DNA of 64,000 nucleotides from Methylocystis rosea SV97. GTDB lineage: Bacteria; Pseudomonadota; Alphaproteobacteria; Rhizobiales; Beijerinckiaceae. The stretch is from assembly GCF_000372845.1 (NCBI RefSeq), contig NZ_KB889963.1, positions 682,001 through 746,000 on the forward strand, given 5' to 3'. Made by a program: the position numbers and the translations under genes. The notes beneath the pieces were generated by a model. That model searched no databases, was not told the DNA's origin, and saw nothing but the letters and a program-made list of their open reading frames with translations. This document shows positions 4,791 to 28,662 of this stretch, piece by piece (position 1 is the first letter of the stretch; every line of letters begins with the position of its first letter).

Positions 4791-6203
4791 ATGAAGAAGA
4801 TTCTGCCCGTTATTATGTGCGGCGGATCGGGGACGCGGGTGTGGCCCGAGTCGCGCGAGACGTTTCCCAAGCAGTTCATTCCGCTCGTCGGGGAGCGCTC
4901 CACCTTCCAGACGACGATCGCGATGCTGGCCGACCCGGCGTTCGAACGGCCAATCGTCGTCTCCAATTTGGAATACCGCTTCCTCGTCGCCGACCAGCTG
5001 CGCGAGATCGGCGCGGAGGCCGACGTCGTGCTGGAGCCGTCGCGCCGCGACTCGGGTCCGGCGGTCGCCGTCGCGGCGGGCCTCGCCGCGCGCCGCGCGC
5101 CCGACACCATTGTCGTCGTGCTTGCCGCAGACCATGTCGTGCGCGACACGCAAGGCCTCGTCGATCTGTGCAAGCGAGCGAGCGCCGCTGCCGCCGAAGG
5201 CTATATCGTCACGCTTGGCGTCAAGCCGGACGGCCCCGCGACGGGATACGGCTATCTGCGCCCCGGCGCGCCGCTCGAGACCTGTTGCGAGGTCTACAAA
5301 CTCGACGCTTTTGTCGAGAAGCCGGACCGCGCCACGGCGCAGGACTATGTCGACGCAGGCTATCTCTGGAACAGCGGCAACTTCATTTTTCGCGCCGACG
5401 TCATGCAGTCGGAGATCGCGCAGTTCGAGCCCGGCATTTTCGCCGCCGCCGAGGCCGCGATCGAAGCGGCCCGCCAGGACCTCGGCTTCATGATTTTGAA
5501 CGCCGAGGCCTTCGCGCATGCGCCGAAGAAATCGATCGACTACGCGGTGATGGAGAAGACCGACAAGGCGGCGCTGATTCCGGCCGACATCGGCTGGTCC
5601 GACGTCGGCACCTGGCGCGCCGTGTGGGAATTGTCGGAGCGCGACGAAAACGGCAATTCGGTGCGCGGCCATGGCGTCGTGATGGATGCGCGCAACGTCC
5701 ATGTGCGCTCAGAGGACACGCTGACGACGGTGGTCGGCGTCGACGACATCATCGTCGTGACGACGCAGGACGCCGTGCTGGTGCTCAGCCATGAGCATGG
5801 CGATCAGGTCAAACAGCTCGTTGAGCAGCTGCGCAGCGAAAACCGGCGCGAAGCGGGCGAGCACAAGCGCATTTTTCGGCCGTGGGGATACTATCAAGGG
5901 ATCGACGAAGGCCAGCGCTATCAGGTGAAGCGCATCGTCGTGAAGCCCGGCCAACGCCTGTCGCTGCAGAAGCATTTCCACCGCGCCGAACATTGGATCG
6001 TCGTGCGCGGCACGGCGGAGGTCGGCCGTGACGAGGAAATTCATCTCGTCCATGAGAACGAGTCGATCTATCTGCCGATTGGCAGCAAGCACCGCCTGAC
6101 CAATCCCGGCAAGATCGATCTGGAGCTGATCGAAGTGCAGACGGGCTCCTATCTTGGCGAAGACGATATCGTCCGCTTCGAAGACGCCTATAATCGCGGG
6201 TAG
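4791..6203 (+). CDS. manC: Mannose-1-phosphate guanylyltransferase / mannose-6-phosphate isomerase (ManC/AlgA type)
   Basis: 470 residues from the ATG at 4791, preceded by agagggg at a suitable distance; a longer frame from 4749 is not needed. Residues 10-20 carry the nucleotidyltransferase signature GGSGTRVWPESR, and FVEKP near residue 173 is the sugar-phosphate binding motif. From about residue 360 a cupin-type isomerase domain begins (RPWGYY, then QKHFHRAEHW and the cupin Gly/Pro box), so the protein has both halves of the type II enzyme. It makes GDP-mannose for polysaccharide or lipopolysaccharide synthesis in the cytoplasm. No sugar-nucleotide genes are adjacent. Symbol could equally be algA, xanB or cpsB. 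Confidence 0.92.
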   Translation: MKKILPVIMCGGSGTRVWPESRETFPKQFIPLVGERSTFQTTIAMLADPAFERPIVVSNLEYRFLVADQLREIGAEADVVLEPSRRDSGPAVAVAAGLAARRAPDTIVVVLAADHVVRDTQGLVDLCKRASAAAAEGYIVTLGVKPDGPATGYGYLRPGAPLETCCEVYKLDAFVEKPDRATAQDYVDAGYLWNSGNFIFRADVMQSEIAQFEPGIFAAAEAAIEAARQDLGFMILNAEAFAHAPKKSIDYAVMEKTDKAALIPADIGWSDVGTWRAVWELSERDENGNSVRGHGVVMDARNVHVRSEDTLTTVVGVDDIIVVTTQDAVLVLSHEHGDQVKQLVEQLRSENRREAGEHKRIFRPWGYYQGIDEGQRYQVKRIVVKPGQRLSLQKHFHRAEHWIVVRGTAEVGRDEEIHLVHENESIYLPIGSKHRLTNPGKIDLELIEVQTGSYLGEDDIVRFEDAYNRG

Positions 6204-6244
6204 TCGACGCGCGCCAACTTTGCAAAAATCACCGTAGCGGCCGG

Positions 6245-6276
6245 CGTGGATGGCCGCGACAAGCGCGGCCATGACG
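6245..6276. repeat. Dispersed palindrome (cgtggatggcc...ggccatgacg), copy 1
   Basis: A near-perfect inverted repeat built on ggatggccgcg-aca-agcgcggccatgacg. Two further copies of the same family lie at 37542-37573 and 37648-37679. It overlaps the 5' end of trpF and contains the likely trpF start codon. Confidence 0.8.
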
Positions 6277-6915
6277 CAATCAACGATCGTCAAAATCTGC
6301 GGTCTGTCCTCGCCCGAGACGCTTCTCGCGGCGATCGAAGCCGGCGCGGACATGGCGGGCTTCGTCTTCTTCGAGAAAAGCCCGCGCCATATCGACCTTG
6401 AGACCGCCCGCACGCTTGGTCTTCTCGCGCAGGATCGCATCAGCAAAGTCGCGCTTGCCGTCGACGCTCACGACGCCGCGCTTCAAGACATCGTCGAGGC
6501 GCTCGCGCCCGACTATCTTCAGCTTCACGGAAGTGAGACGCCGGCGCGGGTCGCCGAGGTGAAGGCGCGCTTCGGCCTGCCGGTCATCAAGGCGGCGGGC
6601 GTCGCGACGCCCGCCGATGTCGAGACGGCGCGCGCCTATGAAGACATCGCCGACGTCATTCTGTTCGACGCCAAACCCGCGCCGAACGCAGCTGTTCCCG
6701 GCGGCGCCGGCGTCGCTTTCGACTGGTCTCTGCTGCGCGGCGTCGCGGCGAAACACTGGATGCTTTCGGGAGGACTGACGCCCGAGAATGTGGCGGAAGC
6801 GATGCGCCTCACCGGCGCCCGCGCGGTGGACGTCTCTTCCGGCGTCGAGCGCGAACGCGGCGTCAAGGACGCGGCGAAGATTTCAGCCTTCCTGGCCGCC
6901 GCTCGGCTTTCATAG
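6271..6915 (+). CDS. trpF: Phosphoribosylanthranilate isomerase
   Basis: 214 residues from the ATG at 6271 (MTQSTIVKICGL). An in-frame ATG at 6250 would add MAATSAA, but that stretch is the palindrome itself, so the later start is preferred; neither start has a clear Shine-Dalgarno. Family motifs seen are KICGL at the N-terminus, GFVFFEKSPRHI, the QLHG loop, and the phosphate-binding LSGGLTPENV near the C-terminus, as expected of the TIM-barrel enzyme that converts N-(5-phosphoribosyl)anthranilate to the carboxyphenylamino-deoxyribulose phosphate in tryptophan synthesis. trpB follows after a repeat element, so the two may share a transcript. Confidence 0.93.
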   Translation: MTQSTIVKICGLSSPETLLAAIEAGADMAGFVFFEKSPRHIDLETARTLGLLAQDRISKVALAVDAHDAALQDIVEALAPDYLQLHGSETPARVAEVKARFGLPVIKAAGVATPADVETARAYEDIADVILFDAKPAPNAAVPGGAGVAFDWSLLRGVAAKHWMLSGGLTPENVAEAMRLTGARAVDVSSGVERERGVKDAAKISAFLAAARLS

Positions 6916-6952
6916 CGGCGTTTGACAGTTTAAGACTGCGCCGACGGATCGG

Positions 6953-7077
6953 CCCCCTCCCTGTCCCTCCCCCGCTACGCGGGAGAGGGGACGCCAACGA
7001 GCCGCATTGCGGGAAACTCGATGAAGCGCCGAATCTGACTCCCTCTCCCGCGTAGCGGGGGAGGGCTGGGGAGGGGG
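6953..7077. repeat. Long inverted repeat between trpF and trpB (ccctctcccgc element)
   Basis: Two 37-base arms, 6953-6989 and 7041-7077, are inverted copies with 34 of 37 bases matching; the core is ccctcccccgctacgcgggagaggg. They enclose a 51-base loop. This type of GC-rich element occurs widely between genes in Alphaproteobacteria. It could fold into a very stable RNA hairpin between the two trp genes. Confidence 0.85.
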
Positions 7078-7104
7078 TAGCGACGCAGAGCGAGGACGCC
7101 CCCC

Positions 7105-8343
7105 GTGAACAAGCCGATTCCCAATTCCTTCCGCGCCGGCCCGGATGAAAACGGCCGCTTCGGCATTTTTGGCGGGCGTTTCGTCGCCGAAACGCTGATG
7201 CCGCTCGTGCTCGATCTTGAAGCGGCGTACGAGAAGGCGAAGATCGATCCGGCTTTTCACGAGGAGCTCACGAGCCTCCACAAGCACTATGTCGGGCGCC
7301 CCTCGCCGCTCTATTTCGCCGAACGCATCACCGACTATGTGCGTGAGCGGGCGGGCGAGGGCAAAGGCGCCAAGGTCTATTTCAAGCGCGACGAGCTCAA
7401 TCACACCGGCGCGCATAAGATCAATAATGTGCTCGGGCAGATCCTGCTCGCGCGGCGCATGGGCAAGAAGCGCATCATCGCCGAGACGGGCGCCGGCCAG
7501 CATGGCGTCGCCACCGCCACCGCCTGCGCGCGCTTTGGCCTCGACTGCGTCGTCTATATGGGCGCGGTCGACGTCGAGCGGCAGAAGCCGAACGTCTTCC
7601 GCATGAAGATGCTCGGCGCCGAAGTCATTCCCGTGCAGTCGGGCGCGCGGACCTTGAAGGACGCGATGAATGAGGCGCTGCGCGACTGGGTGACGAATGT
7701 CGCCGACACCTTCTACTGCATCGGCACGGCGGCGGGGCCGCATCCCTATCCGGCGATGGTGCGCGATTTCCAGTCGATCATCGGCAATGAGACGCGCGTC
7801 CAGATGCAGGAGATGGAAGGGCGGTTACCGGATTCGCTCGTCGCCTGCATCGGCGGCGGCTCCAACGCCATTGGGCTGTTCCATCCGTTTCTCGACGACG
7901 CCAGCGTCGAGATTTACGGCGTCGAGGCGGCGGGCCATGGCGTCCATGTGCCGAACGGCCATGCGGCGTCGCTCACCGGCGGGCGTCCGGGCGTGCTGCA
8001 CGGCAACCGCACCTATCTCCTGATGGACGACGACGGCCAGATTCTCGAAGGCCATTCGATTTCGGCGGGATTGGATTACCCCGGCATCGGCCCCGAACAT
8101 TCCTGGCTGCATGAGATCGGCCGGGTGAAATATCTGAACGCCACCGATCAGGAGGCGCTGAGCGCTTTTCAGCTCTGCTCGAAACTCGAGGGCATCATCC
8201 CAGCGCTCGAGCCCTCGCACGCGCTGGCGAAAGTGTTCGAGCTCGCGGCGCAGAAGCCGCGCGATCATCTGATGGTGATGAATATGTGCGGCCGCGGCGA
8301 CAAGGACATTTTCACCGTCGCGGAGCATCTCGGCGGGATGTAA
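7105..8343 (+). CDS. trpB: Tryptophan synthase beta chain
   Basis: 412 residues, GTG start at 7105. The pyridoxal-phosphate lysine lies in HTGAHK (residues 100-105), the phosphate-binding loop GGGSNAIG is near residue 250, and GAGQHG, ACARFG and the C-terminal NMCGRGDKD are all typical. The enzyme condenses indole with serine to tryptophan and normally works as an alpha2-beta2 complex with TrpA. Unusually, trpA does not follow; a repeat element and an opposite-strand gene come next, so trpA must lie elsewhere in the genome. Length is normal. Confidence 0.97.
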
Positions 8344-8351
8344 CCCGAGCG

Positions 8352-19866: not shown

Positions 19867-22041
19867 CTAGCGTAGTTTTATCGTCAGGTCGGTCCCGTCG
19901 TTTCCGGTCTCGCCGCTGACCGGCTGGTCCGAGATGATGAGCGACGCACCAGTCCATAGCCGCTCCGCAATCCGGTCGCGTACGTCTTTCGGGATGTCGA
20001 TGCGCTCCAGCGCCTCGGACGGGCTCGCGCTCGCAGGGCGCCAATCCCAGGATATGTCGGCTTTAGCATCGGCCGACGCCAGATTCTTCCTGCGCTCCGT
20101 CTGCGCTTCCGGCATCGACAGGACCGACCATTTGAGCGAGCTTCCGTCGTCCTTGGCCGCCGTCGCAATATACAGATGCGAGCCGAGCGGCGAGTCCGGA
20201 TCGCGGATCTCGATTGGCGCATCGAAAAGCGGCGACAGGCCCTGGCGAACATAGATCCGCCGATCCTTCTTGCTGATCAGCACCGAGAGGGGCGTTACGC
20301 GCCGCTCGGCTTCTCTTTGAGCGGTTGCGGCGGCGGCGGCGGTCGTTCTCGCCTCATCCAAACGCCGCTCCGCGTCCGCCAGATCCGAGTCCCCGGCGAC
20401 GACGGCCGCGCTCGCCTGTTCGAGCTTTGCCGTGGCTTCCGCCAACGCGGAGCTGGCGTTCGTCTGAATCAGCAGCGCCGCGTCCTCAGCGAGCAGAGCT
20501 TCGCCATAGGCTCTCGTCAGACGGTCGGCTCTGGCTTTGGCCTGTTCATCGCCCGCCGACGCGCTGCGTTCCGCCGTTACGGCCGGCTCCTGCTGGCTGA
20601 TGGCCGCGGCCTTAGAGGCGTCATAGGAGGCCCCAGCCGCGTCCGCCTTGACGACGGCCAAGGCCTGCGCGGCTTTTGCGGCGCGGAGCTCGGCCGCGGT
20701 GCGCGCGGCCTCTTTCTGCTTGATGACCACTTCAGCGGACAAAGCCTTGATTGCCTTGCTGGCGGCGGCGGCGTCAGCCTGGGCCTTGGCTTTCAGTCGC
20801 TGGGCATATTGATGCGGGTTTACCGTCAGGCGTTCGGCGACGGCGGCTGGGCCCGAGGAAACCGACGATGCCGATTTCTCTGCCGTGGTTCCGGGTTTGG
20901 GCTGCTCCGTCTTCGACGCCGGGTCGGCGGAGTCGGGCTGCTGCGAATTTGCAGCGGGCGCGGCTGTATCGGCCGAAGCGACCTCAGCGCCGGCTTCCGC
21001 CTTGGGCTGCTGGGGGTGCTTTGAACCGGCGGCAGTCGCATCAGCCTCGACGGCGGGGGGCTGTGGCATATCAGCCGTCGGCGCGGCTTTGGCGGCTCCA
21101 GTCGCGCCGGCCATGGCGTCGGCTTGAGTGGCCGGCTGCTGCAGTCTGGCCGCCAGCTGGTCGGTCGCGGCGAGGGGCTGCTTCTGCGGGTCTGCAATTG
21201 CCGCGACAGTTTCGCTGGTTTCGGCCTTGGGCTGCTCTGCTTTGTCGCGTCGCGCGTCGCCTTCACCGGCGTCGGCTTTGGGCTGCTCCGCCTGAGGCGC
21301 GAGGCGATCTTCTGCGGCGTGGGGCGGTTGTTGCGGCTCAGCCGCTGGCGCGCCTTTTTCCGCTTCTAGGGATGCGCGCATCATAGGCGCTGGCAGCAAG
21401 GGGTGTTCGAATTCGGCCGGAAACACGTCATGCGGCGTGATCACGACCCGCTCGCCGATTCTGGTCATGCCCCAGAGCTTCGCCGCGAATGCGGCGGGAA
21501 GCCGGATGCAGCCATGCGAGGCCGGATGTCCCGGCACGACTCCAAGATGCATGGCGATGCCGGACCAGGTGATCCGCTGCATGAAGGGCATCGGCGCGCT
21601 GGAATAGATGTTGGATCGATGGAACCGTTCGCGGCCGATGATGGTGAAAATGCCTTTCGGCGTCGGATGTCCGGCAATGCCTGTCGAGATCGCCGAACGC
21701 GCGACCAGGCCGCTGTGGTTGTAGATCGACACCTGCTGATCGGCGATGGAGGCGACGACGAAGAGCGGCCGATCAAGCCGTGCAGCCTCGGGCTTGGCGT
21801 CGAGCGAAGTCGCCGCGCCGCTTTTGTCGCTCGTTGGACGAGAGATCTTTTTTCGCGCGGCCGGGCGTTGCGGGCGAGTGATGCGCTCTGGCTCTGGAAC
21901 CGCATTGATGAGAGGCTCGCGGTCGCCCCAGAAATAATAGCCCTGCGCCAGGACAGGCGTCCGCGCCAAGCCGAGCGTCGCGGCGGCGGTCACTGCCACC
22001 TTCGAAAAAAGCCGGGCGCGAGAGCGCGTTCGCAAGCGCAT
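19867..22041 (-). CDS. Large L,D-transpeptidase with Ala/Gln/Pro-rich repeats and coiled coil
   Basis: 724 residues from ATG 22041, with ggag 8 bases upstream; the frame is open to 22134. A signal peptide (about 1-33) is followed by a YkuD domain at roughly 92-200 with MHLG (His165) and SHGCIRL (Cys178). Residues about 215-430 form a low-complexity spacer with many QPKAE/QPKAD-like repeats; 430-590 is a strongly alanine-rich predicted coiled coil. The C-terminal 130 residues (LSVLISKKDRRIYVRQG...) resemble the N-terminal strand of a YkuD domain without its active site. The architecture suggests a periplasm-spanning peptidoglycan enzyme or tether. Confidence 0.85.
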   Translation of the reverse strand: MRLRTRSRARLFSKVAVTAAATLGLARTPVLAQGYYFWGDREPLINAVPEPERITRPQRPAARKKISRPTSDKSGAATSLDAKPEAARLDRPLFVVASIADQQVSIYNHSGLVARSAISTGIAGHPTPKGIFTIIGRERFHRSNIYSSAPMPFMQRITWSGIAMHLGVVPGHPASHGCIRLPAAFAAKLWGMTRIGERVVITPHDVFPAEFEHPLLPAPMMRASLEAEKGAPAAEPQQPPHAAEDRLAPQAEQPKADAGEGDARRDKAEQPKAETSETVAAIADPQKQPLAATDQLAARLQQPATQADAMAGATGAAKAAPTADMPQPPAVEADATAAGSKHPQQPKAEAGAEVASADTAAPAANSQQPDSADPASKTEQPKPGTTAEKSASSVSSGPAAVAERLTVNPHQYAQRLKAKAQADAAAASKAIKALSAEVVIKQKEAARTAAELRAAKAAQALAVVKADAAGASYDASKAAAISQQEPAVTAERSASAGDEQAKARADRLTRAYGEALLAEDAALLIQTNASSALAEATAKLEQASAAVVAGDSDLADAERRLDEARTTAAAAATAQREAERRVTPLSVLISKKDRRIYVRQGLSPLFDAPIEIRDPDSPLGSHLYIATAAKDDGSSLKWSVLSMPEAQTERRKNLASADAKADISWDWRPASASPSEALERIDIPKDVRDRIAERLWTGASLIISDQPVSGETGNDGTDLTIKLR

Positions 22042-22196
22042 GTGCCGCTCCAAACTGCTGTTGAGCACCTTCGGTACTAAGGCGAATTTCTTATTTAAAC
22101 GATAATGAATGGCTAATGCGTGGCCAAACAGCAACCAAGATCAAGGCCCAATGCTTGAGCTTTGCTTCGTGCGCAGCGAAGAGAGGGTTGTTTTGA

Positions 22197-23433: not shown

Positions 23434-23760
23434 ATGACTGACAATGACGACGGCGCCGACCGTCGGCTTTCGCGCCGAGCTCTCTTGCTCGGCGCTTTCA
23501 CGCTGCCTCTTGTCGTTGTGGAGCCGGAGCCGGCGTCCGCGCAGCTGGGTCTCATTGGCGCGATGCTTGGAGGGTTTCGCTTCCGGTTTCACCGTCGCCA
23601 TTCTGGCGGCTACCATCATTATCAGGCGCGCCGCCATTACGCGCGTCATCGCGGACGCGTGCGTGTCGCAAACCGTCGCCGTCATGGCGGCGGCGGTGGC
23701 GGAGGGGACAGCGGCGGCGGCGGGGGTGGCGGCGGACAATTCAGCAAAGGCGGACTTTAA
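23434..23760 (+). CDS. Small exported His/Arg/Gly-rich protein, function unknown
   Basis: 108 residues. The N-terminus RRLSRRALLLGAFTLPLVVVEPEPASAQ is a Tat-like signal ending in an AxA-type site. The mature part is only about 70 residues: a His/Arg/Tyr-rich block (HRRHSGGYHHYQARRHYARHR) and a tail of Gly runs. ATG start at 23434. Its stop overlaps the stop of the convergent kinase gene by four bases. The clear signal peptide argues that it is real, but composition alone could mislead. Confidence 0.55.
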   Translation: MTDNDDGADRRLSRRALLLGAFTLPLVVVEPEPASAQLGLIGAMLGGFRFRFHRRHSGGYHHYQARRHYARHRGRVRVANRRRHGGGGGGGDSGGGGGGGGQFSKGGL

Positions 23761-25472
23761 CGCCGGCCGCGTCGCCGCTTGATTCTCTGCAAGGCTTCGG
23801 CGGCGTCGGGAACGTCCTGTAGACTCGCCTTATAATAGAGTTCTTCGGCCTTGCCGCGACTAACGTCCAGTCCTGCCAGGCCCTTCTCATAGGCTTCGCC
23901 GAGCCAATATTGCGCTCTGCCGTTGTTTTGCGCCTCCGCCTGCTCAAACCAACGTACCGCTTCGGTCGGATCTTGCCTGCCGTCGGGCGTCATGCCGTCC
24001 TTGTACATGACGCCGAGCGACGCCTGCGCGTCGGCATAGCCCTGCATCGCGGATTTTTTGAACCAGTTGAAGGCCTCCGAGAAATTCTGCCGGCCCGGCG
24101 CCTTCGCGTAGAGAGTGGCGAGATGATACTGCGCCTCTTTATCGCCGGACTCCGCCAGTTTTTGCGCAAGCGGGAAGGCGACGTCCCATCGTCCGCGATC
24201 CTTCATCGCCGCGCGCAGCTCGGAAATCGAAGCGCTCGAGTTTGAAGTGGATGGCTGGCGCCAATTGCAGCCCAACGGGTCGTTCCGCGTCGCAAACTGC
24301 GAGTTGCAGTCGCCGCCCCGAGCGATCGGCGCATCGTTGACTCTGCTGATGGGACGGTGGTCGCCGTCGCCTGGATCGGTTCGGGTCTGGCGTTCGTCCC
24401 GTGCTGGCGACGACGGCTCGATCAGCGCGAGAAAAGCCAACGTGGCGAGCGCCGCAGCCGCGATGCCGAGGGAAGCGCCTTGCGCCGCGGGATGCAGCCG
24501 CTTGAAGCGGCGCACGAGCGTCGCGCTGCGACTTTTCGCGAGGGCGATAAGCTTCGTCGACATGCGCTCGGGCGTCGGCACGTCGCGCTCGGCCGTCGAA
24601 TCCTGGACGAGATGTCCCGCGCTGCGAATAATGCTCGAGGCGTCGATGCGCAGCGCCGTGGCGCCGAGCGCGTCGCTAAAGGCGCGCATATTCGGGAAGC
24701 GTTGCTCCGGACGTTTCGACAGCGCCGTCATGATCGCCGATTCAATTTCCGGCGTGACGCCCGATATGCGCGGCACGAGCGGCGGCGCCTCGGCGTGGAT
24801 CTGCGCCTGAGTGAGATCATATTCGGTCGCGCCGGAAAAGGGCGGCGCGCCGGCAAGCATCTCATAAAGCACGACGGCCAACGAATAGAGATCGCTCCTC
24901 TCGTCGCCTTCGCCGCCGCGGCACTGCTCCGGCGACATGTAAAGCGGCGTGCCGACCGCCGTGCCGGCGCGCGTGAGACGCACGCTGCCACGCACCCGCG
25001 CGATGCCGAAATCCATGATTTTGATTCGGCCGTCGTCGGCGACCATGAGGTTCGACGGCTTAATGTCGCGGTGAATGACGCCCATCTGATGCGCGTAAGC
25101 GAGTCCGTCCGCCGCCTGCGCGATGATCGCGAGACTTTCCTTGACGCCAAGCGGTTTGCCGCGCTCCCTCAAGATCTCGTCGAGCGGCCGGCCGTTGATA
25201 AGCTCCATGACCATGTAAAGGTCGCTGCCCTGCAGCACCGGCGAATAGAGCGTCGTGATGTTGGGGTGGTTGAGTTTGGCGAGACTCGTCGCTTCGGCGC
25301 GGAAACGTCCGACGAAGTCGGGGTCCTGCGTGAGCTCCGCGCGCAGGGATTTGATCGCCACTTCGCGCTCGAGGAAAGTGTCGAGCGCGGCGTGCACCTT
25401 GCCCATCGCGCCGACGCCGAGCAGCTTGACGATGCGATAGTGTCCGATCATCTGCGGGTCGGTCATGCTCAA
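23757..25472 (-). CDS. Transmembrane serine/threonine protein kinase with Sel1 repeats
   Basis: 571 residues. The kinase domain occupies about 10-270: Gly-rich loop LLGVGAMGKV (17-26), Lys41 in VAIKSL, catalytic HRDIKPSN (134-141), DFG at 154-156, and APE-equivalent MSPEQ. A single membrane helix at about 333-352 is followed by an extracytoplasmic part with three to four Sel1-like repeats (e.g. AFNWFKKSAMQGYADAQASLGVMY). All catalytic residues are intact. It overlaps the PP2C gene by four bases and ends the FHA-protease/phosphatase/kinase operon. Confidence 0.95.
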   Translation of the reverse strand: MSMTDPQMIGHYRIVKLLGVGAMGKVHAALDTFLEREVAIKSLRAELTQDPDFVGRFRAEATSLAKLNHPNITTLYSPVLQGSDLYMVMELINGRPLDEILRERGKPLGVKESLAIIAQAADGLAYAHQMGVIHRDIKPSNLMVADDGRIKIMDFGIARVRGSVRLTRAGTAVGTPLYMSPEQCRGGEGDERSDLYSLAVVLYEMLAGAPPFSGATEYDLTQAQIHAEAPPLVPRISGVTPEIESAIMTALSKRPEQRFPNMRAFSDALGATALRIDASSIIRSAGHLVQDSTAERDVPTPERMSTKLIALAKSRSATLVRRFKRLHPAAQGASLGIAAAALATLAFLALIEPSSPARDERQTRTDPGDGDHRPISRVNDAPIARGGDCNSQFATRNDPLGCNWRQPSTSNSSASISELRAAMKDRGRWDVAFPLAQKLAESGDKEAQYHLATLYAKAPGRQNFSEAFNWFKKSAMQGYADAQASLGVMYKDGMTPDGRQDPTEAVRWFEQAEAQNNGRAQYWLGEAYEKGLAGLDVSRGKAEELYYKASLQDVPDAAEALQRIKRRRGRR

Positions 25473-26347
25473 CCCTCCGCGACGGCGTCGATCTTCGCCG
25501 TCAGGGCGCCCGTCGGCGGGTCCGCGATGTTTATCCGCTTCGTCGCCGCTTGATCGGCCACCCGACCGGCGCCGTCGGTCTCCGCCACGAAGACGCCCAC
25601 TGAAATATTGTCATGTCCGCCGCCGCGGCGCGCGGCGTCGATCAATAGCCGACAGGCCTCCGGCGGCGGGTTTTTTGAGACCACTTCGGCGATCCTTGCG
25701 TCGGAGACGAGATTGGTTAAGCCGTCGGAGCACAAGATCACGATGTCGCCCTGTCGCAGCGGCAGGCCTTCCGTCCAGATTGTCGGCTCGACGTCGAGAC
25801 GCGTGCCGAGCGCCTGCAGAATGACATTGCTTCCGGCGCCCTTGCCTGCGTCCTCCGGCGACATCACGCCGTCGCGCACCAATTGCGCGTGCAGCGTCTG
25901 ATCGTCGGAAAGTTGGACAAGCCGGCCGTCGCGCATCAGATAGGCGCGGCTGTCGCCGACATGCGCGAGCCACAGAAGACCGTCCCTGACGCCGAGCGCC
26001 GTGCAGGTCGTCCCCATGCCGGCGCAGTCAGGATGTTTGGCGGCGTAGTCGAAGATCGCTCGATTGGCGGCGTCAAAAGCCGCCCGCAGCGCCTCAGAAG
26101 CGATCTTGTCGAGCGAATAATAGACGCGCCGCACGACTTCGAGCGCGAGCGCGCTCGCCACCTCGCCAGCGGCGTGGCCGCCCATGCCATCCGCGACAAG
26201 CGCCAGCGCGCCGTGGTCGCGAGCTTGCGAGGGGCCGGCGCCTGCGATGAAGGCGACGGAGTCTTCGTTGAGCTGCCTGACGCATCCGACATCCGTGCGG
26301 ATGGCGCCTGCGATGCGCAACGGGTCTTCTGGCCGGTTCGCCGTCAT
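25469..26347 (-). CDS. PP2C-family serine/threonine protein phosphatase
   Basis: 292 residues. The PPM metal-binding motifs are all visible: RQLNEDS near residue 25, ADGMGGHAAGE near 52, GDSRAYL, SDGLTNLV and GGHDNISV near the end. It removes phosphate from Ser/Thr with Mn2+ or Mg2+. It is soluble. Start overlaps nothing upstream (18-base gap to the FHA-protease gene) and its end overlaps the kinase start (ATGA), so it probably counteracts that kinase. Confidence 0.96.
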   Translation of the reverse strand: MTANRPEDPLRIAGAIRTDVGCVRQLNEDSVAFIAGAGPSQARDHGALALVADGMGGHAAGEVASALALEVVRRVYYSLDKIASEALRAAFDAANRAIFDYAAKHPDCAGMGTTCTALGVRDGLLWLAHVGDSRAYLMRDGRLVQLSDDQTLHAQLVRDGVMSPEDAGKGAGSNVILQALGTRLDVEPTIWTEGLPLRQGDIVILCSDGLTNLVSDARIAEVVSKNPPPEACRLLIDAARRGGGHDNISVGVFVAETDGAGRVADQAATKRINIADPPTGALTAKIDAVAEG

Positions 26348-26365
26348 GGGAGGACGGACCCTTTG

Positions 26366-28198
26366 CTATTCGCGCTGCGCTTGGGTGAGTTCGGCGCCAT
26401 ATTTGATTGGAACCGCCATGGTCGCTTTGGTGTCGCCAACATTGCGGCTGTAGGTGAAGAGACCAATGACCTTGCCGGAGGAATTGAACACCGGCCCGCC
26501 GCTGTTGCCCGATCCGGTGGCGACGACGCTGAGCTGGTAAACGTCGCCCATATCGCTGGCGAAGGTGCCGCCTTCCGTCGACTTCACGCCGCTCGCGGTC
26601 TTCGACACGATGCCTTCGGTGACGGTCGCCTCGGTGATCTTTTCGAGCTGGCTGCGAATACGGCCGCGCTCTTCGGTTTGCCGCAGCACGAAGTTTTCGA
26701 CCGAAACGGCGGGGTAGCCGAGCACGGTGATGTTCTCGCCGATCTCGACGGCGGCGTTGGGCGCCATATCCACTTTGGTCAAAGTCTGGGGCGAATCGAT
26801 CTTGACGAGCGCCGCGTCGGCGTCCGCCGACGTCCTCACGAGACTGGCGTTCACGCCCAAACGGCTGCCGTGAAACTTGACCTCGAGAACTTCGTTGCGG
26901 CCGACGAAAGACGCCTTGTTATTGGAATTTGGATCCGGGGTGTTGCCCGTGAGCGCCGTCGTTGGATCGTCGGTCTTGAAAATGTAGCCGCCCGATTCAG
27001 GAATCCAATGGAACACGTCGGCATAGGCCGAATCATAGAGATCGATGAGCTTCGGCTCTTTGATTTTGGCTTTGCGCTTCTTTCCCGATGAGACGACGAC
27101 GTAATCGTAGAGGATGCCCTCCCTGCCGCCTTCGGCGCCATAGGCGACCTGCCAGCCGGCGGCGACATGCTTATTGGTGAGAATATAGCCCTGCTCGCTG
27201 ATGACGAAGCCGCTGCCAGTGCCGCCGCCGCCGACCATGAGATTGGTGATGTGATCGTCTTCAAGGGTCAGCCAGCGCACGACGCCGAGATTGTTCGGCA
27301 GCTGCACATAGGCGGGATAGCGCCGGCCTTTGTAGTCGATCGTCTTGTGCTGGATGGGCCTGCCGGTCTGCTTATCGTACAGCCGCCACATCATGCCGAC
27401 TTGGACAGTCGCTTTCGCATACTTGTCATAGATCTCGCGCGGCTTCATGCCGATCTTGAGGTTGACGTCGCCGGGGATGCGCGACAGCCTTTCATCCGTC
27501 TCGGTTTGAGCGAGCTTGTCTTCCGCGTCTCTTCGCTCGAGTTCGCGATGCTGAGCCCAGTAGAGCGCCGCGCCGCCGAGTACAAAGAAGGCGACCACCG
27601 CGGCGATCGCGCCGGTCATGTTTCGATTGGCCTTGCCGCGTTCTTCTCCGATGAGCCGCTGCACAGTTTCGTGGCCGATTCCGACCTTCTTCGGCGGTCC
27701 GCCGTCGGCGTTCGCTCCTGCCGCCGTGCTGGCGCCGGTCGCGGCGGCGTTCACAGCCGTCGAGGCGGCGGCTTCGGCGGTCTTGATGACGCGGGTCGCC
27801 GCGGTGTCTGCGACGCCGATCACCTTGGTTCTGGCGGCGAAACTTGCGGGCCGCGGCTGCACGTCGAAGGTGAACTTCGGACCTTTGGCGCCAAGTTCGA
27901 TCGTGTCTTCGGGAAGAAGTTCGACCTCGCCGTTCACCCGCTCGCCATTGAGAAAGGTGCCATTGCTGCTGCCGGCGTCCGAGAGCTTGAAGGAGACATT
28001 GTCGCCTTCGCCCATGATGCGGATGAGCGCATGTTTGCGGCTGACGACGCTGTCGCCGACAGGATCGAAAGCGATCTTCGACGTTGGATCGCGGCCGATA
28101 GTGAATTCGCGCGAGTCGCCGACCGGCAGCTGTTCGATCTGATTGGCCTTGGAGCCCGACAGATGTCGTATGATGATACGCTCGATTGGAGTCGTCAT
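26366..28198 (-). CDS. FHA-domain membrane-anchored trypsin-like serine protease
   Basis: 610 residues from ATG 28198 (MTTPIERIII). Residues about 33-110 form a forkhead-associated domain with GRDPTSKI, SRKHALIR and DAGSSNGTFLNG, which binds phosphothreonine peptides. An Ala-rich linker leads to one membrane helix (196-214). The extracytoplasmic part is a chymotrypsin-fold protease with His344 (TNKHVAAG), Asp461 (DADAALVKI) and Ser566 (GNSGGPVF). No PDZ domain is seen. It is the first gene of an operon with a PP2C phosphatase and a Ser/Thr kinase, so phosphorylation inside the cell may control proteolysis outside. Confidence 0.92.
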   Translation of the reverse strand: MTTPIERIIIRHLSGSKANQIEQLPVGDSREFTIGRDPTSKIAFDPVGDSVVSRKHALIRIMGEGDNVSFKLSDAGSSNGTFLNGERVNGEVELLPEDTIELGAKGPKFTFDVQPRPASFAARTKVIGVADTAATRVIKTAEAAASTAVNAAATGASTAAGANADGGPPKKVGIGHETVQRLIGEERGKANRNMTGAIAAVVAFFVLGGAALYWAQHRELERRDAEDKLAQTETDERLSRIPGDVNLKIGMKPREIYDKYAKATVQVGMMWRLYDKQTGRPIQHKTIDYKGRRYPAYVQLPNNLGVVRWLTLEDDHITNLMVGGGGTGSGFVISEQGYILTNKHVAAGWQVAYGAEGGREGILYDYVVVSSGKKRKAKIKEPKLIDLYDSAYADVFHWIPESGGYIFKTDDPTTALTGNTPDPNSNNKASFVGRNEVLEVKFHGSRLGVNASLVRTSADADAALVKIDSPQTLTKVDMAPNAAVEIGENITVLGYPAVSVENFVLRQTEERGRIRSQLEKITEATVTEGIVSKTASGVKSTEGGTFASDMGDVYQLSVVATGSGNSGGPVFNSSGKVIGLFTYSRNVGDTKATMAVPIKYGAELTQAQRE

Positions 28199-28662
28199 TA
28201 CTGCCCCCTGCGCCAAAAGCGCGCTCGTCTTCGCCGTTTGAAAATGCGCGAATTGCCCCAATTTCGAGGATAGACCCGACTTTCCTCGGGTGGCAAGGCC
28301 GCTTGGCCATGGCTGCGGCAGGCGCGCGCGCGCGTTTCCTTTGCGGCGGCGATCAAGCGGCTCAGACGCTGGGCGAGCGCTGTGCTATTTTTTCAAAGAT
28401 ATCTTGATGGTAGTCGCGCGCGTGTCGACTCGCACGGACACTGTCCGTTTGCGCAATCGGTTCTTTCACCGATTGAATATATTTGCGGCAACGGAGGCGC
28501 GCGGCCCTCTCGTCAACAGTTTCACCGTCGTGCCGGCGCTATGCGTCACCGAACATCACGGGTGGGCTGCGCGTCGAATTTTAAGGACGCCCGATTGGCG
28601 CCGCGAGCGGGATCGTCAAATCCGCTCGCGGCCGCCGTATGCGTCAGGCGTCGCCGCGCCGC
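28199..28662. other. Intergenic region between leuA and the FHA-protease operon
   Basis: Apart from a terminator hairpin at 28600-28632 no gene is supported. Short open frames on the plus strand have no recognisable product or start context. The part next to 28198 must carry the promoter of the FHA-protease operon, but no consensus boxes stood out. Confidence 0.5.
28600..28632 (-). terminator. Probable terminator hairpin of leuA
   Basis: Perfect 11-base inverted repeat gccgcgagcgg / ccgctcgcggc with an 11-base loop, 31 bases beyond the leuA stop codon. There is no strong T run, so it may act as a transcript-stabilising hairpin instead. Confidence 0.5.

Follow-up and report, generated by a model that had tools for sequence, protein, structure and literature searches.

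FHA domains act in secretion and in cell wall growth, in the type VI secretion system (T6SS) and in mycobacteria. Three reports describe systems that come close to the locus analyzed here: the mycobacterial operon holding pknA, pknB, a phosphatase gene, fhaA and fhaB together with rodA and pbpA (PMC11898655); the T6SS threonine phosphorylation pathway, composed of PpkA, PppA and Fha1 (PMC5995506); and a catalogue of trypsin-containing conflict systems that covers FHA domains as well as trypsin-like peptidases and kinases neighboured by PP2C (PMC7159879). We analyzed a window of 64,000 nucleotides from Methylocystis rosea SV97 (contig NZ_KB889963.1, positions 682,001 to 746,000), in which three tightly packed minus-strand genes at 23757-28198 encode a Ser/Thr kinase, a PP2C phosphatase and a protein, here called FHAP, that joins an FHA domain through a transmembrane (TM) segment to a trypsin-like domain. 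We propose, with our confidence evenly divided, that these genes form an envelope switch in which phosphorylation inside the cell alters a protease outside the inner membrane.

The three genes and their precedents

The open reading frame (ORF) calls separate FHAP from the phosphatase gene by 18 nt and the phosphatase gene from the kinase gene by 2 nt, or let the latter two overlap by 4 nt if the kinase uses a TTG start. The ORFs agree exactly with a first-pass annotation made from the letters of the DNA, which had called them adjacent, co-oriented and overlapping or nearly so. The features of the unit are as follows.

26366..28198, minus strand: FHAP, 610 aa; cytoplasmic FHA domain, linker, one TM segment and periplasmic trypsin-like domain, as predicted from ORF, Pfam, hydropathy and alignment
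27890..28102, minus strand: FHA domain, FHAP residues 33-103, with R36, S53 and N79 (Pfam, alignment)
27557..27619, minus strand: FHAP TM segment as predicted by hydropathy, roughly residues 194-214
26459..27217, minus strand: Trypsin_2 domain, FHAP residues 328-580, with H344, D461 and S566 and a long His-Asp stretch (Pfam, alignment)
25469..26347, minus strand: PP2C phosphatase of the Stp1/PstP kind, 292 aa (Pfam, NCBIfam, sequence nearness)
23757..25466, minus strand: Ser/Thr kinase of the PknB kind, 569 aa, with one TM segment and a Sel1 tail; ATG start, TTG start at 25472 possible (ORF, Pfam, hydropathy)
23763..24227, minus strand: kinase residues 414-568, a helical Sel1 tail that is predicted to lie outside (Pfam; the only confident part of the structure model)

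How does this unit compare with the described systems? By the sequence similarity of its parts, the mycobacterial pkn operon is the nearest precedent. Both combine a PknB-type kinase, a PP2C phosphatase and an FHA protein in one operon, and in both the kinase has one TM segment and an outside domain. However, the FHA domain of the window is fused through a TM segment to a predicted periplasmic trypsin-like protease, the kinase carries Sel1 repeats instead of PASTA repeats (none of the latter found in Pfam), and the operon lacks wall-synthesis genes but has a small, basic protein of exported type linked to it. Similarly, FHAP resembles the DegS/HtrA/MarP-type proteases in having a trypsin-like domain predicted outside the inner membrane, with a triad that aligns to those of MucD and HTRA1, but it has no PDZ domain at a Pfam E-value of 0.01, carries a cytoplasmic FHA domain before the TM segment, and falls far under the family cut-offs (59.8 bits against 416.2 for the NCBIfam model degP_htrA_DO, and likewise far under those for DegS, Do and MarP). 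With the trypsin-containing conflict systems the unit shares kinds of domain, whereas none of the three genes encodes the NTPase or adaptor partners on which the definition of those systems rests, and the FHAP protease domain is predicted to lie on the opposite side of the membrane. None of the three proteins reaches an NCBIfam family cut-off.

FHAP and its partners

FHAP matches Pfam FHA at an E-value of 6.9e-16 and Trypsin_2 at 8.4e-21, and its nearest relatives differ by part: GarA for the FHA domain, and MucD, HTRA1 and DegP for the protease. It has a single strong hydrophobic segment (residues 194-212) with basic residues on its N-terminal side. The kinase (Pkinase 8.7e-51; three Sel1 repeats, 6.8e-18) likewise has one such segment, at residues 331-349, also with basic residues N-terminal of it, and the phosphatase (Pfam 3e-14) has no strong hydrophobic segment. 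Since each membrane protein has a single TM segment preceded by basic residues, the FHA and kinase domains are predicted to face the cytoplasm, and the trypsin-like and Sel1 parts to lie outside the inner membrane. The first-pass annotation had drawn the same layout, FHA domain inside, protease and Sel1 repeats outside, and hydropathy, charge pattern and the three Pfam repeats agree with it.

Are the functional residues present? The pocket by which FHA domains bind phosphothreonine (pThr) is marked by GR, SxxH and NG motifs (PMC1262709). The FHA domain of FHAP carries these motifs and is predicted to bind pThr, and its pocket residues R36, S53, H56 and N79 are invariant in nine of nine aligned relatives. 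FHAP residues H344, D461 and S566 align with triad positions of the HtrA/DegP-type proteases MucD and HTRA1, which we take to be the catalytic ones, and the triad is intact in eight of the nine relatives. In six-frame pattern scans of 18 loci, the kinase motifs VAIK, HRD and DFG and the phosphatase motif DGMGG were found in all 18, and a second, strict PP2C pattern in 12. Among solved structures, the best relative of the kinase is PknB (8.7e-59), although its 298.5 bits against the NCBIfam model PknB_PASTA fall under the cut-off of 450. For the phosphatase, a chain named PstP (9.8e-39) and the bacterial enzyme 1txo (6.1e-39) score level with each other and well ahead of a chain named PppA (2.5e-23). 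A TxxI motif present in two copies in the FHAP linker does not vary among the nine rows of one alignment, but the distant rows of a second alignment do not keep it, and it was dropped.

Genome-wide, FHA is matched once, and the sole further kinase to exceed the cut-off is a PP2C-kinase fusion (L041:1207-2913; G000:C1:403409-403996). FHAP, the phosphatase and the kinase therefore appear to be natural partners; for the same reason the circuit would be nearly closed, so its targets should be within reach of simple genetics.

Conservation of the unit

The comparison covers 21 distinct loci after removal of duplicates (the window, L002-L009, L097-L104, L096, L142, L143 and L144); a scan of named genomes gave eight loci and genome searches added to them. 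Seven of the 14 carriers in the genus are represented with flanks (L097-L100 and L103-L105), in addition to the window. Two loci were left out as carriers: L145, with an FHA protein of about 349 aa that lacks a protease, and L146, with a partial match and no FHAP by blastp. By the first-pass annotation's own terms, scattering of the three genes in relatives would have counted against it. Instead, they follow one another as FHAP-PP2C-kinase, co-directionally, in 20 of the 21 loci, counting L003, whose kinase gene runs off the contig, and L143, where FHAP lies in two overlapping frames. In the remaining locus, L098, FHAP is inverted and faces the phosphatase and kinase genes, still adjacent to them. 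Because the order is kept even though protein identities among loci fall to 28% (BLAST), and because the distance matrices of the three proteins are correlated (r 0.96-0.98 for 16 loci; r 0.91-0.94 for the 13 alphaproteobacterial loci), chance does not account for it.

The surroundings differ. leuA and/or an esterase gene flank the unit in the window and nine other loci; the flanks are different in L097, L098, L101 and L102, and L008 and L009 have none of the window's flanking genes. The unit is thus conserved beyond its neighbourhood.

A fourth gene, which the first-pass annotation had overlooked, stands at the end of the kinase gene:

23434..23760, plus strand: small convergent gene, 108 aa, sharing 4 nt with the end of the kinase gene; its product has a twin-arginine-like signal ahead of a His/Arg/Gly-rich tail

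Its product begins with a signal (SRRALLLGAF...ASAQ), which by its likeness to the consensus appears to be of the twin-arginine type, and continues as a His/Arg/Tyr/Gly-rich, basic tail. In six close sequences (15 pairs), differences at codon positions 1, 2 and 3 number 52, 69 and 254, and this concentration at position 3 argues that the small ORF is a coding gene. All 17 alphaproteobacterial kinase loci that were read (16 distinct, since L105 duplicates L006) have a counterpart with the RR signal and an Ala-x-Ala-Gln end, and the position of its stop ranges from an overlap to 86 nt past the kinase stop; in L098, with its inverted FHAP, the small gene sits between FHAP and the kinase gene. No NCBIfam model matched the window copy or four relatives, and no Pfam family matched the window copy. 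This small, basic and apparently exported protein is a linked fourth component outside the operon, and we infer it to be a candidate substrate or partner of the protease.

Distribution

Carriers span Methylocystis, Methylosinus, another genus of the same family, and a distant proteobacterial family that includes a probable ammonia oxidiser. Full-length FHAP is present in 14 of the 39 genomes drawn from the genus, where several of the 25 non-carriers are incomplete. In the wider draws the counts are 5 of 149 genomes for the family, 1 of 397 for the order, 1 of 385 for the class and 2 of 398 for the phylum. The combination is thus rare, in keeping with the annotation's remark that a protease effector is unusual. 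These draws overlap, and each count includes the window's own genome; the second phylum match is a genome designated G1017. For order, class and phylum, scoring stopped at three candidates per genome, and a rare carrier may have escaped it. In the draws on the genus, the family, the class and the class of G1017, matches other than the full-length rows cover only the protease or only the FHA domain. A scan for G-x-SGG in 29 loci from the last of these draws gave a frame in 27, some of them cut by the locus end, and one match, on the strand opposite to the FHA match. In a plasmid collection, two FHAP proteins found no match.

In the family of G1017, which is presumably the Nitrosomonadaceae, 6 of 125 genomes match, and four of these (G1017, G1283, G1350 and G1295) hold the three-gene set; the other two have an FHA-only protein (G1368) and a partial match (G1314). 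Within the class of G1017, 144 of 369 genomes exceed the cut-off; among the matches listed, only that in G1017 is whole-length, and the others consist of the FHA part alone or, once, the protease part alone. PF02461, here the marker of copper monooxygenases, occurs in three copies each in G1017 and G1283. A G1017 copy is nearer to the ammonia monooxygenases (2.4e-150) than to the methane enzymes (4e-86) of solved structure, so G1017 most likely oxidises ammonia. Of 11 carriers tested, 9 have PF02461, the exceptions being G1295 (85% complete) and G1350 (97% complete), both in about 150 contigs. It was also found in two of four non-carriers tested (G089 and G1267), and thus does not predict carriage, as well as in G1314 and G1368, which have partial FHAP matches only. 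The link between the gene set and copper monooxygenases is at most suggestive.

A proposed switch and its alternatives

We propose that the kinase reads the state of the periplasm through its Sel1 tail and phosphorylates threonine on itself and/or on the FHAP linker, whose candidate sites are T135 and T178. The resulting pThr would be bound by the FHA domain, with its intact pocket, on the cytoplasmic side, so assembling or reorienting FHAP, and this change would alter the activity of the trypsin-like domain across the membrane. The protease would act on a protein of the envelope, for which the product of the linked small gene is a conceivable choice, and the phosphatase, judging from its family, would reset the switch. 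This reading rests on the composition of the unit, its intact active sites, the predicted topology, the conservation of the unit and the lack of a T6SS marker nearby. Proteolysis under pThr control across a membrane is, on these sequence grounds, plausible, and the chain as a whole stands at about an even chance of being right.

Several observations weigh against it. In the L144 locus (L144:513-3872), the FHAP triad is replaced in the alignment (H to D, D to A, S to N) while R36, S53 and N79 are kept, so proteolysis appears dispensable there and is not always the output; this FHAP is also the most divergent aligned row, at 31% identity. Linker threonines are not significantly more conserved than other residues (2 of 8 compared with 5 of 73; Fisher p 0.14). 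The structure model of FHAP is poor (mean pLDDT 42.5), and that of the kinase (mean pLDDT 49.3) is confident only in the Sel1 part; at this low confidence we claim no fold for the protease domain or for that of the kinase. The small gene runs towards the operon and is not co-transcribed with it, and its counterparts were read in alphaproteobacterial loci. Finally, the kinases of L142 and L144 show no Sel1 repeats, and those of L096 and L143 align to the window kinase over the kinase domain only. In L096, L142 and L143 the next gene after the kinase reads as that of a small lipoprotein-like protein containing a glycine zipper; for L142, two Pfam glycine-zipper models matched just under their cut-offs. 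FHAP of L144 is preceded by two proteins whose N-termini look like export signals, one a separate Sel1 protein and the other an OmpA-domain protein, an arrangement that fits a periplasmic input. Because Sel1 is missing or separate in L142 and L144, and the alignment is confined to the kinase domain in L096 and L143, the outside input seems to vary while kinase, phosphatase and FHA domain stay. What looks constant is a predicted core of kinase, PP2C phosphatase and FHA domain at the membrane, with a trypsin-fold domain that would be active in most lineages but not all.

Could FHAP be a receptor or dock rather than a protease under control? Its trypsin fold might bind or sense envelope ligands while the FHA domain gathers phosphorylated cytoplasmic partners, with proteolysis optional and the signal perhaps running outside-in. 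L144, with its dead triad, intact FHA pocket and preserved three-gene order, is what such a protein would look like, but the triad is intact in the other eight aligned relatives and so divergent a row may be a special case; we regard this possibility as unlikely. A switch for wall growth like that of mycobacterial PknB/FhaA, in which the FHA domain would bring in wall proteins once these are phosphorylated, and the protease would cut back envelope factors, could account for parts that are nearest to PknB, PstP and GarA. It would also suit the position of the L142 operon about 1.3 kb from genes that by reading appear to be mraZ/rsmH, and of a YkuD L,D-transpeptidase gene two genes on in the window. 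However, the operon itself holds no wall gene and its contexts vary, which leaves this explanation very doubtful.

The patchy presence within the genus (14 of 39 genomes) is what one might expect of a phage-defence or conflict module, in which the kinase would sense infection and release the protease on an envelope target. In L098, TIR and patatin phospholipase genes lie directly beside the inverted FHAP (6099-8349); TIR and RyR/TrkA_N genes are found near the L142 unit, and a DUF4062 gene near that of L143; an Arm-DNA-binding (integrase-type) gene adjoins the L097 unit. The window kinase also matches the PADLOC PD-T4-6 kinase models (3.5e-89), but so does the genome's other, unrelated kinase (3.5e-48), and we discount this match as general. 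Moreover, leuA and the esterase gene are the commonest neighbours and the protease is predicted to lie outside the cytoplasm, so that we consider a defence role quite improbable. The first-pass annotation had likened the set to T6SS clusters while seeing no T6SS gene here. The likeness stands in that kinase, PP2C phosphatase and FHA protein are clustered in both, but the FHA protein of the window is a predicted membrane protease and the mycobacterial PknB/PstP/FhaA-FhaB operon is nearer by parts. An orphan of the PpkA-PppA-Fha pathway would suit the three shared protein kinds and the family carriers outside Methylocystis, three of four of which have VipB somewhere. Yet among the 18 carriers covered (14 Methylocystis and 4 others of the family), VipB, the sole T6SS gene searched, is absent from the window's own genome and all 14 Methylocystis carriers, and where it occurs it is far from the unit, at about 2 Mb in G078 and 121 kb in G126, or on a different contig, in G128. 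Thus no VipB adjoins the unit, and by this marker the T6SS locus beside the genes in other strains that would have counted against the annotation is not seen. Together with a phosphatase nearer to PstP than to PppA, this led us to reject T6SS parentage, and an orphan origin is hardly credible.

We therefore return to the envelope switch. In methane oxidisers and some ammonia oxidisers, it seems, phosphorylation inside the cell steers a protein-cutting domain outside the inner membrane; if true, pThr gating of a protease across a membrane would add a new output to those of bacterial Ser/Thr kinases. A bolder version, which we consider distinctly unlikely, is an undescribed trans-membrane phospho-protease system made up of the kinase, the phosphatase, the FHA-anchored periplasmic protease and an exported basic protein as its dedicated substrate. 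Found mainly among methanotrophs and ammonia oxidisers, whose membranes carry copper monooxygenases, it would remodel or monitor their envelope or intracytoplasmic membranes. In the open-licence literature, subscription papers and preprints being outside the scope of the search, we found neither a description of an FHA-anchored protease with a kinase and a PP2C phosphatase nor a report of kinase-FHA signalling of this kind in methane or ammonia oxidisers.

Genomic surroundings

The host genome is of Methylocystis type and measures 3.91 Mb, and four Methylocystis/Methylocystaceae relatives encode an FHAP 98% identical to the window copy. A consensus scan placed a promoter-like site upstream of FHAP at 28267-28296 on the minus strand; two such sites in the region against 1.0 expected is near chance. 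The closest coding neighbours of the operon are leuA and, beyond the small gene, an esterase gene (Pfam). Further downstream of the kinase gene, past the small gene and the esterase gene, a YkuD L,D-transpeptidase gene at 19867-22134 on the minus strand encodes a long Ala/Glu-rich tail. L143:1056-9035 resembles L142:4114-12776 by position and length at the apparent mraZ/rsmH side, with the TIR/RyR/TrkA_N or DUF4062 genes on the opposite side. Finally, in L004:2725-7812 and L103:3570-8660, genes for an apparent TonB-type receptor, a response regulator and a histidine kinase (by reading) lie between leuA and FHAP; the window has none of them.

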